A DNA stretch of 40,620 bases from Methanolinea sp. (GTDB lineage: Archaea > Halobacteriota > Methanomicrobia > Methanomicrobiales > Methanospirillaceae). Under the pieces are notes generated by a model. It did no database searches and had not been told where the DNA came from. It saw only the letters and a list, made by a program, of their open reading frames with translations. The number at the start of each line of letters is the position of its first letter. Within the stretch, counting starts at the first letter, position 1. Location of the stretch: the NCBI GenBank assembly GCA_018263335.1, contig JADFCY010000016.1, positions 1 to 40,620 of the forward strand. The letters are read 5' to 3'. Shown one piece after another: positions 1,951 through 7,675 of the stretch. The translations under genes and the position numbers were made by a program.

Positions 1951-2215
1951 TTATAAATATATAGATCTTTCCCTTCTTCTTCAGGGGATGCTGAAAAGGA
2001 GAACAGAATATGAAGTATATGCCCTAAATCATGCGGAATTCTGGATCAAGATAACCTTTGGATACCTGGAACGGCTTTTGATTGGACACGGGATTGCCAT
2101 ATTCACCCCGTATCGTTTGCCCCGGGCATATACCGCACGTATCAGCTGTCAGAACGAAATATGAATGCCATGGTTCATCGAACCGTCTGCTCCATGGACC
2201 ACACAGACTGGATTT

Positions 2216-2404
2216 ATGATAAATAACCGCGTAAAACCCACGGTAAATGGGACCAGGTCAGGGTATACCATACGCTTTACCTGTCCCAATTGTGCAAAAG
2301 AGAACACGATTGTGTACAACATGCCCAAGGCCTTTTACAAGGAATCAAGGGACGCGGTCTGCGGAAAGTGCAGGAAGCACTACACCGTGCTGACACCGGA
2401 TTGA
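2216..2404 (+). CDS. small zinc-ribbon protein, paralogue A
   Basis: A 62-residue protein with two knuckles, CPNC and CGKC, spaced as in a zinc ribbon, and the end HYTVLTPD. A near-identical paralogue of the same length lies at 4661-4849. The two agree from VKPTV onward and share VYNMPKA and YKESR. This fixes the start at 2216, because homology does not extend into the 17 extra codons available upstream. The role is unknown. Proteins of this size with two CxxC motifs often bind nucleic acid or act as adaptor subunits, but nothing here shows which. No clear Shine-Dalgarno sequence precedes the start, so the transcript may be leaderless or nearly so. Confidence 0.75.
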   Translation: MINNRVKPTVNGTRSGYTIRFTCPNCAKENTIVYNMPKAFYKESRDAVCGKCRKHYTVLTPD

Positions 2405-2504
2405 TATGCTGAGATGCAGGTGTGAAAAGAAGGGTTTTCACCTGTGTTCTCCCATTTTCTTTCCTTTTTAAGAGATCCCTCCTGACTGAGAGCGGGTGGA
2501 CTTT

Positions 2505-4022
2505 TCACACCATCGTGACATTCGTCGTCCAGTAATCTACAAGCAGGATTTCCATGTCCGTGGTACATGTATCGCAGGCAATCTTCGGGTTCTGCACTGC
2601 CAGGCGGAACATCAGTTCATCGCCGGGATCAGGGGTGCGAGGGGCATCCACGTCTTTCTGGATAATATACCGTTATGGATCAAGGCTTCCGAAGTAGTAT
2701 CTCCTGTAGCGCCGGCGCTCCTCTTCCGTCGCATTATGGGATTAGTCTGCAGCCTCTGCTACCGTGACGTCGACCGGTATCCAGCCATATCCTTCAAGGT
2801 AATATTCTGCCCAGAAGTGTTCACCCGCAAGTCCCGGGACGAGTTGGAACCCTCCCGTGGACCGTGCGGGGATATCAAGTGATCGGCACAGGGCGGCAAA
2901 TTACATGCTCTGCGACCCACAGTCGCCAAACCCCGTCTCAAGGACAAAAGTGGATTCAGGTATCCCTGCAGTCTCCAGCATGAAATGCGGAACGTGGCTG
3001 TAGGGGAGGGTGTCCATGATGTGCCAGTAGATCTTCTCTGCCGGGATCTGGGGTTTTGTCTCGCCTCCCACGATTTCGAGTGCCTTTTTCGTTATTCCGG
3101 GTGTGATTGCTATGTTCTTTCCGGACGCCATGTAGTGCAGGTATTCGTGATTGCCCGTGTCCTAATTTTCGACTTTGGAAGGATCAATGACAAACCGCAC
3201 CTCGTGCTGGGTGAACCTGAATTGTGTCGAGATATTGAGGAAACCCCCGTTCACGTCCGCGAGAGGGATCTCCAGATATGCATGCCCGATGTCGGCGGAG
3301 GTATCCGGCCAGGAACGGACGTACTGTGCCGGCTCGACCGAGAGGATTGCAACATCTGACTGGGAACCGGACTCTATGGGGGCCGGGACCCATATCCGCA
3401 TGGTGCCAGTCTCCGGGAGAAGTTGCGTGGGAAGCAAGAGGCGCTGGGTTATTTCAAATACGACCGGTTCGCCCTAGGGCCCCTTGTTGGGAAGCGGAGG
3501 GGCGAACGCAAGGCTGCTCGTCTCATCAAAGAAAGGTGAATAATTGAACTCTTTTGTCATTCTCCGGGCCAGTGTGAGATTATGAAACATGATATTGCTG
3601 ACTGTATCGGAGAAGTAGAGGTGTTCGCCGTCACTCACTCGGCGGATACTCTTCTCTTCCGAGAGGAGATCGGCGATCTCCCTGGCTGAAAATTCCGGAT
3701 ACGCTCGCATTATCTCTGATTCGGCGGCCGAGCGGTTGAGAGGGAACTCTAATATCATTCACTCCGATACAAGTGCTTCTTTCAGGGCTTTCCGGGCAGA
3801 GACAGTATCACCCCTGGCCTGGGAATCGCTGTATGCCTGCATGGAGAGTTCAGCTGCAGAACGGTAATTCGATGCACCCTACGCCGCTGCGGCCTTTGCG
3901 GCGAGGTCACAGGCGGCCAGGTTGTCATAGTCAGAACTCTTCGAGATGCACCCGGGAGATGTCGCAATAAAAACGAACATCACGATAAAGAGAGGATAAA
4001 TCGCCCCAGGGAAATCCTGCAT
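2505..4022 (-). pseudogene. transglutaminase-like lipoprotein gene with seven in-frame stops
   Basis: A single uninterrupted frame of 506 codons from ATG 4022 to TGA 2505-2507, broken only by stop codons. TAG is at codons 48, 183 and 287, TGA at 88, and TAA at 374, 427 and 450. Ignoring the stops, the product is a secreted lipoprotein: hydrophobic leader at 8-22 with lipobox Cys about 25, an N-terminal repeat-like helical region, a beta-rich middle, and a transglutaminase-like core. The core keeps C368 in GFGDCGSQSM, H402 in EHFWAEYY and D418 in WIPVDVTVAE. Such proteins are usually extracellular thiol proteases or transferases. With ordinary decoding the gene cannot make its enzyme, so it is called a pseudogene. 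The absence of any frameshift over 1.5 kb is unusual. Segments between stops read as intact protein. Confidence 0.8.
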
Positions 4023-4103
4023 AGTATTCCCATTACGAGAACAGGACGATAATGGTTTGTCCCTGGTGATACTGGACACTTCAGGAAAAAATTCCGCGCG
4101 GAA

Positions 4104-4117
4104 GGAAAAAATTTAAA
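4104..4117 (+). promoter_or_regulatory. TATA-like promoter element
   Basis: An A/T-only run upstream of the CxxC protein at 4223. It resembles an archaeal box A, but the implied leader of about 80 nt is long, and a second AT-rich candidate (TTTATTATCTAT) lies at about 4163-4174. Confidence 0.3.
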
Positions 4118-4222
4118 AAATATCGAAGGATATAGCGATTTTTGTATGGGACGAAGCTGCCCTTTATTATCTATCGCAACAGAATAGTAATTACAGTTTT
4201 TCTAGACTGTTTGAGTAAAGAT

Positions 4223-4390
4223 ATGTTTCGATCAAATTTTGGCGGCCCGAGAAATATGGGACCCCGTGAAATGACAAAGGTAGTCTGTTCTGACTGCGGA
4301 AAAGATTGTGAAGTACCGTTTAAGCCGACCGAGGGCAGGCCCGTCTATTGCCAGGAATGCCTTCCGAACCACAGGCGGCCCCGGTTATAA
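4223..4390 (+). CDS. small CxxC-CxxC zinc-ribbon protein
   Basis: A 55-residue protein. The first 20 residues are Gly/Arg/Asn-rich. Residues from about 25 form a zinc ribbon, with CSDC followed by another Cys three residues on, then CQEC and a basic tail (HRRPRL). This arrangement is widespread in archaea and in candidate-phyla bacteria, usually in very small proteins of unknown function with an RG-rich head and a ribbon tail. The ATG at 4223 was chosen because the upstream in-frame codons (from 4142) encode an unrelated hydrophobic stretch across the likely promoter. It is transcribed divergently from the broken transglutaminase gene. Nucleic-acid binding is plausible but only inferred. Confidence 0.7.
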   Translation: MFRSNFGGPRNMGPREMTKVVCSDCGKDCEVPFKPTEGRPVYCQECLPNHRRPRL

Positions 4391-4660
4391 TTCTCTCTTT
4401 TTTTAGCCCGATCGTCCCTGTTGGCGGCAGGCTCATATTCTGACACCTGTATCCTACGTCTATTTACCCTCATACATCCTATACTCGTGGAGCCAGGCAC
4501 TTGACTGGACACAAGGAAGCGCCTTTTTATGGGATACGATGCATGGAAATCCCGTCATCAAATGTATTCCCTGCGCATACCATATGCTTGAGAATATGAG
4601 AATATGAATCATGCAATGCGGCAATCTTCGCGAAGAGGCCGTATCGTATATATTGAAATC

Positions 4661-4849
4661 ATGATGAAGAGTGTTGTTAAACCGACGGTAATAGGGACGA
4701 GGTCCGGGTATGTCATCCGTTTCACCTGCCCCAGTTGTTTCAAAGAGAACTCAATTGTGTACAATATGCCAAAGGCCTATTATAAAGAGTCCAGGGAAGG
4801 GACGTGTATTCAATGCAGGAAGCACTACACCGTGCTGACACCGGATTAA
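4661..4849 (+). CDS. small zinc-ribbon protein, paralogue B
   Basis: A 62-residue paralogue of the protein at 2216-2404, with knuckles CPSC and CIQC, shared YNMPKA and YKESR segments and the identical C-terminus HYTVLTPD. Differences are mostly conservative, so both copies look like maintained genes. The start may be 4661 or the next ATG at 4664. An upstream in-frame ATG (4604) would add 19 residues not shared with the other copy. An AT-rich run lies immediately upstream (about 4648-4655), too close to the start to be a normal TATA box for it. The preceding gap 4391-4660 holds nothing else recognisable. Confidence 0.75.
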   Translation: MMKSVVKPTVIGTRSGYVIRFTCPSCFKENSIVYNMPKAYYKESREGTCIQCRKHYTVLTPD

Positions 4850-4990
4850 CCTAAAAAGTCACACAATCGAAGAAGAGTGAATACACTCTTCCTCTTTTCC
4901 TTTTCCGAATGAAAATCACTTCCTGATTTTCATCGTTTAGGTCCGACGGCAGGGCAGTCATGTATGCTTCCAATGAAATTGCCACCGGCA

Positions 4991-5085
4991 GTTTCATGCG
5001 TCAGGACTGTTGCGAGGCGCATCAGGGGTGTGTTCATTTTGTATGCGTGTCTCTCGACCAGTGAATCATGTAATTTTCTCTTTTG
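4991..5085. repeat. dispersed repeat, copy 1
   Basis: The part from 5034 to about 5082 matches 34451 to about 34498 with few mismatches; both contain TATGCGTGTCTC followed by a GAC and an AATCAT. A second block at 4991-5022 matches 34379-34412 only in reverse complement. In the second copy that block is bounded by GCGTC/GACGC arms, so it could be the inverted loop of a hairpin. The small open frame covering this region (4930-5133, minus) is best read as part of the repeat. The rest of 4850-5446 holds no gene. Confidence 0.55.
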
Positions 5086-5446
5086 ATAACCTGGTATCTC
5101 TCCCTGGAATAGAGGTTGCCTTACGCTACTCATTCATCCTGTGATTGTAGCCAGGTGACGGGACAGGAGCATACCTTTTTTCTTGTAATGATGTGCAACG
5201 GGATGGGTCCCGCTTTCTGTAAGGTGTTTCCTGGGCGCGGGATTCCGTTCCCCCTTCACCTGACTTCTCCTTGATCCGGGTCTTCCATTCGAATCACAGG
5301 GTCGGGGGAATCTTCATCTCGCGCGAGGCAGAGTCGACTTTTTTCCCCTTGCAGTACTACACTCCGCTCGTAGTTCATTTCCGAGATTTTTGGATCTTTT
5401 TGGTGTAAGCGAACCTTTTTCAAGTCATAAACCTTCCTCAACAACT

Positions 5447-5845
5447 ATGCCAAACATCTCTTACTTTGAGGTTCCTGCAGATGACGTTGCGCGGGCAAAG
5501 AGGTTCTACGTTGAGGTACTTGGATGGGATTTCATGCGGACCCAGGTGCCGGGGATACCGGTGGAATACTGGAATATCACGACAGGGAAGTCCCGCAAGG
5601 ATACCCTGAACATGGGGGGACTGTACCAACGGAAGGACCCATCATCCCGCATGATGATGTATGCGGTCGTCAGGGAAATCGACCAGACGATCTCAAAAGT
5701 CAAGGAGATGGGGGGTGACGTTATATCCCCGAAAATGACGATTGACACCGTGGGAACCCTTGTCACCATCCTCGACAGCGAAGGGAACATGCTCGGCCTT
5801 TGGGAGCAGGAAAAGAAAAAACCCCCCTACCCCCAGTCACGCTGA
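5447..5845 (+). CDS. VOC/glyoxalase-fold protein
   Basis: A 132-residue protein of the vicinal-oxygen-chelate superfamily. The N-terminus PNISYFEVPADDVARAKRFY is the typical first beta-alpha unit, followed by YVEVLGWDF. A second half-module includes MMYAVVREIDQTISKVKEMG and ends TILDSEGNMLGLWEQ. This two-module layout is found in glyoxalases, dioxygenases and resistance proteins, but also in many family members without known substrate. Metal ligands are not obvious at all four usual positions, so no reaction is assigned. The start at 5447 matches the usual family N-terminus, and the in-frame ATG at 5390 would add a non-homologous extension. It appears to be a single-gene unit. Confidence 0.85.
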   Translation: MPNISYFEVPADDVARAKRFYVEVLGWDFMRTQVPGIPVEYWNITTGKSRKDTLNMGGLYQRKDPSSRMMMYAVVREIDQTISKVKEMGGDVISPKMTIDTVGTLVTILDSEGNMLGLWEQEKKKPPYPQSR

Positions 5846-5916
5846 AATAGACTGCGAATTACCCCTATCTTTGGAGATTCGGGGGCGTGGATCCTGAGAA
5901 ACAACAAAGTCGTATC

Positions 5917-6264
5917 ACAGGGGTTGACCTGCAGATCCTGATCGTCGGTATCGCGGAGAGGTTTTTTATTCCGGAAGGGAGAACCTCGTTCGCATCCCTG
6001 GAAACGGGTTGGATAATGGCATCAATCCCGCGATCATCTCATGCCTCGTTGCCACGTTCCCCGGTCCACTTGCAGGTATCGGCCGTGCGGAAGGGTCCCC
6101 CCTGGCACCCAGAATAATCACCGGGACCGTCGTCCCCCATTATCTCTCCTATCGGTGTCTCCATCGGGGACCTGGTCCAGGGAGCAATCACTGAGAAGAG
6201 AGGCGGTTTTCCCGGCATTACATTTTTATCTGCAGGGGGACCTCCTCACCGCAGCATACCCTGA
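5917..6264 (+). pseudogene. possible frameshifted gene remnant
   Basis: Between two clear genes one frame reads a coherent hydrophobic, Gly/Pro-rich segment (5985-6137, including DNGINPAIISCLVATFPGPL). It appears to continue after a +1 shift near 6140 as a similar segment (IISPIGVSIGDLVQGAI) ending at TGA 6262-6264. No start codon in frame and no family recognised. It may be the tail of a decayed gene; the evidence is only that both pieces look like real protein and abut. Otherwise 5846-6312 is empty. Confidence 0.25.
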
Positions 6265-6312
6265 AAACAGGCGTTGCGTTCCTCTTTATACCCGGCCACC
6301 AGAGTACCCGCC

Positions 6313-6474
6313 ATGAAGACGCAGCAGGAACAGAAGACAAAAGGACACAAGGCCCCGGAAAGCCCGGCTCCCGCATCCCCTGTCCAGAAAAAGACCGAAG
6401 AATCGCTTGATGCCAGGAAGATCGCCTCCCTGAAAGATAAAAATGCGGCGAAGGCAAAGAAGAAGCGGCACTGA
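6313..6474 (+). CDS. small basic Lys/Ala-rich protein, copy 1
   Basis: A 53-residue protein, rich in Lys, Ala, Pro, Gln and Glu, with no hydrophobic segment and a very basic end (AAKAKKKRH). It is probably disordered. It resembles the 53-residue protein at 6705-6866, which has the same length, a Pro/Gly-rich middle and a KIAxxxxNxxxKR-type tail. The two may be an old duplication. The in-frame ATG upstream (6274) was rejected because the extra residues do not resemble the paired protein. Function unknown. The charge suggests binding to nucleic acid or the ribosome, which is inference only. Confidence 0.5.
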   Translation: MKTQQEQKTKGHKAPESPAPASPVQKKTEESLDARKIASLKDKNAAKAKKKRH

Positions 6475-6704
6475 TCTTTTCTGTCTCATCAACTCTCCAG
6501 GTTTTCGCGTTGAGCCGACTTTTAAGACTGAGACAGATCCCGTGAGAGCACATCATCACTTCCTGCCTTGGCCATACCAATCCCTGCAGCCTCATATGGA
6601 ACGTTCGAAAATACGTGGTTTCCTTGAGAGAAAAGTTCAAAAAACCCCATGAAATTCGTTATCTCCAGCCAAGGTATATCATCCCCTGCACCGTATCATC
6701 CCTC

Positions 6705-6866
6705 ATGAGAGATATAGACAACCCGAAAGGCAAAGGGAAAAAATCTGAAAGTGCCAGGGACACTCCAGTACGCGGGGCAGGATCCGGGGCTGTCGGCACA
6801 AAACCCGCGCCATTAACCGCAAAAGAGAAGATCGCAGCAAACCAGAGGAATAAGCGAAGAAAATAA
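6705..6866 (+). CDS. small basic Lys/Gly-rich protein, copy 2
   Basis: A 53-residue basic protein beginning MRDIDNPKGKGKKSE, with a Gly/Ala/Pro-rich middle and the end EKIAANQRNKRRK. Same size, composition and tail pattern as the product of 6313-6474, about 230 nt upstream. The longer frame from 6615 includes a stretch with no resemblance to its partner, so the internal ATG at 6705 is preferred. Low complexity makes the call uncertain, but two such genes of identical length side by side argue against chance. Confidence 0.5.
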   Translation: MRDIDNPKGKGKKSESARDTPVRGAGSGAVGTKPAPLTAKEKIAANQRNKRRK

Positions 6867-6923
6867 GCGTCCCGGCCGCCGTCCATGGAGACAGTCGGAC
6901 GAAAAGTGGTTTTTTTATTGCGT

Positions 6924-7208
6924 TCAGGCAGCCGGGTCTTTTAAGGTGATCCGGTATATGCACCGGTTTCCGGAAGACTTCTTCCGGTTCACCCTGAACC
7001 GGTTCCTCTGCATGGTCTCGGCCCGTTCGAGGTATTTTGCCATCTCATGGCCTGTTGTCCTGGATCCGCAGCGTTCGATGATCTCTCCTACCTGCCCGTT
7101 CAGGACCATGCCGTCTTTGAGACAGGATAGGAGCGATTCACTGATCTCCCACTGCTTACTCCGTATACTCTTCTCCATCCTGTAACAATTGTCCCTTATA
7201 GTAGTCAT
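6924..7208 (-). CDS. small hypothetical protein, possible helix-turn-helix
   Basis: A 94-residue basic protein (start ATG 7208; the frame is open further upstream to 7391 but that part is low quality). Helical segments around 17-35 and 38-60, followed by a basic strand-like end (RVNRKKSSGNRCIYRITL), are compatible with a small winged-helix fold. No family was recognised and no catalytic motif is visible. It converges with the preceding small basic gene. The following stretch 7209-7687 contains no other supported gene. Confidence 0.45.
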   Translation of the reverse strand: MTTIRDNCYRMEKSIRSKQWEISESLLSCLKDGMVLNGQVGEIIERCGSRTTGHEMAKYLERAETMQRNRFRVNRKKSSGNRCIYRITLKDPAA

Positions 7209-7675
7209 AGCTGTGGGATAAGGTACCGCAATGTTGACATGGGAGATTGCCCGGGGGCGTGATATTAAACCTCGGGAATACTCTTTCTTATCACGCCTCC
7301 TCCCAGAGGAAATAATGGATGCGGAAGGAACATGAGAAGAATTGCAATAACTCCCGGAACAGGGTTGCACCCTGTTATATCTTTCCGGCATTATATCCTG
7401 GTCTTCTGCACAAAATCCAAACGCTCATCGCCCGAATCCTCACACTGCCACTCTTATGAAGGTGGGAATTGTCCCCCGCCCAAAGACAGAGGGCCTCTGC
7501 CAGGGGAGCATGACTTTCGCGTGACTGCCGAGGGAAAGGGAGCGTTTACAGATGCCGGCCAGGTCGAGATCGTCGGCTTCGTGAGTTGCGGGGAGGTGCC
7601 CGGTCAAACGGGCAATCCCGGGAGCAAAGATGCTCATGGAGAGGGGGTGCGCAGGCGATTCCACCGGGAGTGAGC

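Follow-up and report, generated by a model that had tools for sequence, protein, structure and literature searches.

The window, a 40,620-nucleotide stretch of a Methanolinea sp. contig (GenBank accession no. JADFCY010000016.1), contains on its minus strand a 506-codon transglutaminase-like frame that begins with ATG at position 4022 and closes with TGA at positions 2507 to 2505. The frame is interrupted by seven internal stop codons (TAG at codons 48, 183, and 287, TGA at codon 88, and TAA at codons 374, 427, and 450), while the other two frames over the same stretch contain 15 and 20 stops. It is plainly the frame of a real gene. When the stops were masked, a Pfam search returned a single domain, PF01841 (Transglut_core), at residues 314 to 418, with an E value of 1.9e-15, a match over the gathering cutoff. 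An earlier reading of the locus from the sequence alone (here, the sequence-only reading), which named no strand, had claimed that the catalytic residues Cys368, His402, and Asp418 are kept, and all three are present in the masked translation. No uninterrupted frame runs across the catalytic domain, as the stops at codons 48, 88, 183, 287, and 374 precede or interrupt it. The same reading described one frame with seven stops and no insertion or deletion. The stops are exactly as it stated, but the absence of indels applies only downstream of codon ~40: codons 42 to 505 align with the three nearest orthologues without any indel. The features of the locus are listed in Table 1.

Table 1. Features of the pseudogene locus and its surroundings (window positions; orthologue codons at the stop sites are given under remarks)
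Feature	Start	End	Strand	Remarks
IS transposase (DDE_Tnp_1)	508	1932	-	Intact; adjoins the downstream breakpoint
Remaining syntenic block downstream of the gene	2046	2504		Zinc-ribbon gene at 2217-2405 (+); homology to G004 ends at 2046
Chimeric transglutaminase-like pseudogene	2505	4022	-	506-codon frame with seven internal stops
Gene body, codon ~40 to 505	2508	3905	-	Intact syntenic orthologues: G009 (L006/L035), G004 (L007/L034), and G026 (L008)
Stop TAA, codon 450	2673	2675	-	TAC (Tyr)
Stop TAA, codon 427	2742	2744	-	TGG (Trp); two changes required
Transglut_core	2769	3083	-	Codons of Cys368 (2919-2921), His402 (2817-2819), and Asp418 (2769-2771)
Stop TAA, codon 374	2901	2903	-	TAC/TAT (Tyr)
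Stop TAG, codon 287	3162	3164	-	TAC/TAT (Tyr)
Stop TAG, codon 183	3474	3476	-	TAC/TAT (Tyr)
Stop TGA, codon 88	3759	3761	-	CGA, CGG, AGA (Arg)
Stop TAG, codon 48	3879	3881	-	TAC, TAC, TTC (Tyr/Phe)
Segment missing in G004 and G009 from between the orthologue and the neighbor upstream of it	3906	7394		Replaces the 5' end of the gene
First ~36 codons (start, signal peptide, lipobox Cys)	3916	4022	-	From another lipoprotein gene, fused in frame; homologue is G002 locus L087

We searched for homologues in 61 genomes related to the one under study, which belongs to a methanogen genus and comprises 2.03 Mb in 47 contigs (99% complete). Syntenic orthologues without internal stops were found in two species of the same genus (G009 and G004, 81% identity each) and in a member of another genus of the same family (G026, 75% identity). 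Further intact homologues are more distant, at 38 to 51% identity. A scan of the contigs recovered only these two congeneric orthologues; an orthologue at the 80% level is absent from 10 of the 12 other genomes of the genus that were compared, some of which carry the 51% form. The genome under study itself has an intact paralogue with 51% identity on contig C35.

Two comparisons that the sequence-only reading had proposed, of the residue opposite each stop in intact homologues and of the same positions in relatives, were carried out on these genes. All seven stop sites are sense codons in all three nearest orthologues, which makes the stops private to the genome under study; neither congeneric species shares any of them. 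The residue opposite the stop is aromatic at codons 48, 183, 287, 374, 427, and 450 and Arg at codon 88, and the Tyr residues that this reading gave for codons 374 and 450 were borne out by the aligned codons.

The codons of the orthologues also indicate how the stops arose. It had been suggested that a C-to-T change (from CAG, CAA, or CGA) explains each stop equally well. The alignment contradicts this, as only the stop at codon 88 (CGA to TGA) is a C-to-T change. Five stops lie at aromatic codons (TAC or TAT, but at codon 48 one orthologue has TTC) and are third-base transversions from TAY to TAR if the ancestor had Tyr at these sites. Tyr codons form the largest target for nonsense mutations in the gene, with 33 to 34% of the opportunities under uniform or own-lineage rates and 20% under the mutation spectrum of the L008 lineage. 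The placement of five of the seven stops at Tyr or other aromatic codons is a mild enrichment (P of about 0.04 to 0.05; 0.005 with the L008 spectrum). Changes from C to A or G make up 30 of 135 changes on this lineage versus 10 of 124 on that of L008, a raised bias that may partly account for the excess of Tyr-to-stop changes. The genome is a draft in 47 contigs, which could favor a sequencing or assembly error as the source of the stops. However, the substitutions are scattered, they include transversions and one double change, they occur alongside many other private replacements, and the neighboring genes are clean, so that we put very little weight on this explanation.

The alignment of five of the six TAA and TAG stops with aromatic, mostly Tyr, codons would be expected if TAA and TAG had been reassigned to Tyr in this organism. 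The Trp and Arg sites, however, do not fit such a reassignment, and neither does codon usage elsewhere. The 17 other genes in the window use 199 Tyr codons (TAC or TAT) and 50 Trp codons, all standard; they contain no in-frame stops and end on TGA (7 genes), TAA (5 genes), or TAG (5 genes). The 35 ABC-domain matches were likewise free of in-frame stops, and the typed tRNA genes include none with a CUA or UUA anticodon. The genes sampled give no indication that the genetic code has changed. A genome-wide reassignment to Tyr is refuted by the stop-free window genes and ABC-domain matches, and a reassignment in this organism has next to no chance of being correct.

The decoding machinery gave a similar picture. 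The tRNA model produced 43 hits; 41 tRNA genes could be typed (40 directly plus one intron-bearing tRNA-Met), and one weak contig-end fragment stayed untyped. None of the 41 typed genes has a suppressor anticodon (CUA, UUA, or UCA), with tRNA-Tyr, -Trp, and -Asp not being recovered in this set. A suppressor tRNA was rejected within this typed set; of the hits at first unresolved, one was the intron-bearing tRNA-Met and another the contig-end fragment. The release factor aRF1 is intact in the genome. The search for a suppressor tRNA or an altered release factor, as suggested in the sequence-only reading, thus yielded neither in the typed set or in aRF1. Pyrrolysine at the TAG codons was also rejected: PylS gave matches only below the cutoff, as it did in 12 of 14 control genomes, and pyrrolysine would leave the TAA codons unexplained.

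We then compared the 5' end of the gene with its relatives. Divergence from the orthologues is far higher over the first 40 codons than over the remainder. By BLAST, positions 2046 to 3905 match the orthologous loci at 84 to 85% and the match ends there, and positions 2383 to 3908 match G026 at 81%, with the homology break at about 3906 to 3915. Positions 3916 to 4402 are 84% identical (71% over the fused coding part) to a different locus, on contig C62 of genome G002, where the counterpart consists of the start of another lipoprotein gene and a neighboring zinc-binding gene. At the junction (3905 to 3916), a foreign lipoprotein start with its signal peptide and lipobox is joined in frame to the transglutaminase-like body, and the original start and promoter region of the gene are lost. 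By chance, such a fusion would be in frame in 1 of 3 cases; the lipobox has been retained. The homologous lipoprotein gene in G002 (L087; C62:7683-8878) is itself broken; its fragments are spread over several frames and contain TGA and TAG.

In G004 and G009, the orthologue is preceded by DNA that corresponds to window positions 7395 to 7659, and a segment of ~3.5 kb (positions 3906 to 7394) therefore occupies the place of the gene's own start and promoter. Terminal inverted repeats were looked for around the IS transposase gene next to the downstream breakpoint and were not found. The remainder of the ancestral neighborhood is on contig C35, where it resumes midway in the next gene, a lipoprotein gene whose 3' part has 89% identity. 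Taken together, the breaks at 3905/3916, 2046, and 7394 and the location of this remainder on C35 mean that rearrangement affected both sides of the locus and decapitated the gene.

Several other observations were made around these breakpoints. Positions 1523 to 2584 of L098, a locus on contig C35, hold the 3' part of the lipoprotein gene, whose orthologue is the downstream neighbor of the pseudogene's counterpart in G004. At the C35 junction, a stretch resembling the 3' end of the transglutaminase gene is joined to this lipoprotein gene, forming the other side of the rearrangement. Two copies of a small zinc-ribbon gene (2217 to 2405 and 4662 to 4860; 79% identical DNA) lie on either side of the pseudogene. 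Related loci in several relatives also have similar copies beside them, and such flanking copies may have helped the rearrangement. A short stretch at positions 4899 to 5094 has numerous counterparts, with 70 to 90% identity, both in this genome and in related ones and is probably a dispersed repeat family.

Next, we looked at selection on the gene body. Over codons 42 to 505, this lineage has gathered 70 nonsynonymous changes, 57 synonymous changes, and 7 stops, and the intact L008 lineage has gathered 69 nonsynonymous and 55 synonymous changes. The overall ratio of nonsynonymous to synonymous changes (N/S) shows no rise over the intact L008 orthologue, and most of the divergence therefore gathered under constraint. 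As the overall ratio did not differ from that of an intact orthologue, we used a site-wise profile test. Conservation of the replaced residues in 19 outgroup homologues averaged 0.37 on this lineage versus 0.23 on the L008 lineage, the nearest comparable intact one (P = 0.003). When replacement scores were treated as a profile mixture of a constrained and a neutral class, the neutral share was 0.37 (0.10 to 0.68), with LR values of 8.2 against a share of zero and 16.1 against a share of one; the intact lineages gave a neutral share of 0, but the same lineages formed the constrained reference. Part of the replacements on this lineage, ~37% (10 to 68%), looks unconstrained by this measure. The pattern fits a gene that kept its function along most of the branch before its constraint was lost.

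A neutral period of the inferred length would be expected to yield two to three stops at most, compared with the seven seen (P of about 0.01 to 0.04). The lack of indels is also unlikely if indels make up 5 to 10% of substitutions, a rate that was assumed and not measured; a few would then be expected. Because the gene was selected for showing stops without indels, the probabilities for both excesses should not be read literally. The combination of seven stops and no indel is a mildly unusual and unexplained excess, for which the choice of the oddest pseudogene can account.

The sequence-only reading had offered readthrough of the stops as its second option. In this scenario, near-cognate tRNAs would insert Tyr at UAA and UAG and Arg or Trp at UGA, which would bring back the ancestral residues and yield a small amount of full-length protein. 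Readthrough would agree with the aromatic, mostly Tyr, identity of the codons at five stops and with the Arg site of the TGA, which is Trp in some distant homologues, as well as with an N/S that is not raised, the lack of indels, and the retained catalytic residues. Frequent readthrough of in-frame stops has also been proposed for prokaryotes (PMC7918605). However, that proposal builds on in-frame stops whose positions coincide between orthologues, and the present stops show no such coincidence. The yield would be vanishing after seven stops in succession, conserved residues are being lost, and the gene's own promoter and start are gone. With stops private to one genome, no suppressor among the typed tRNAs, an intact aRF1, and other sampled genes free of stops, the option is unsupported, and we regard it as highly improbable. 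We see very little chance as well for trace expression of the fused gene through near-cognate decoding, in which selection would have kept stops at tolerated positions and purged frameshifts.

We conclude that the feature is most likely (probability of roughly 0.9) a recent pseudogene that has a chimeric 5' end and resulted from ordinary gene loss. This agrees with the first option of the sequence-only reading, a young pseudogene with an odd mutation spectrum, as the congeneric codons are intact at all seven sites and the gene's own start and promoter are lost. That reading expected a simple recent pseudogene to combine intact codons in close relatives with neutral substitution rates; the codons are intact in the congeneric species and part of the replacements looks unconstrained, so that this yardstick favors a recent pseudogene, although the overall N/S is not raised. 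The ancestral gene, still intact in sister species, encoded an exported transglutaminase-like lipoprotein. As the comparison with these species shows, a rearrangement deprived the gene of its promoter, its start codon, and its signal peptide, and the part from codon ~40 on became fused in frame to the opening ~36 codons of a lipoprotein gene unrelated to it; the locus is broken on its downstream side as well. The fused gene may then have fallen out of use, a loss perhaps eased by the intact 51% paralogue elsewhere in the genome. The seven nonsense changes would have gathered subsequently, together with the replacements P292H, I128R, G383D, and L462R, which are presumably damaging given the conservation of these residues. 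Standard termination at codon 48 would produce a lipoprotein stub of 47 residues.

The feature thus reflects gene loss of the usual kind instead of a novel mode of decoding, and it has little importance beyond annotation. A pattern of stops without frameshift and with retained catalytic residues was explained by comparison with relatives, which revealed private stops and a borrowed front end. Readthrough of seven stops would be very surprising if proteomics showed it to be true.

Compared with known systems, the gene resembles archaeal transglutaminase-like lipoproteins (PF01841) in its Cys-His-Asp triad, in a domain match over the gathering cutoff, and in its 38 to 81% identity to intact genes across the order. 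It differs from them in not being fully translatable under the standard code and in having taken its signal peptide from another gene. With the conserved stops for which readthrough was proposed (PMC7918605), it shares in-frame stops and an N/S under the neutral value, but those stops recur at the same positions across orthologues, whereas the present ones are private to one genome, number seven in a single frame, and lie in a decapitated gene. The gene also resembles prokaryotic pseudogenes with internal stops, in that the nonsense codons are private, the congeneric orthologues are intact, the promoter and start are lost, presumably damaging replacements are present, and an intact paralogue exists. 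In contrast to these, the mix of seven nonsense changes and zero frameshifts in 1.39 kb is uncommon.
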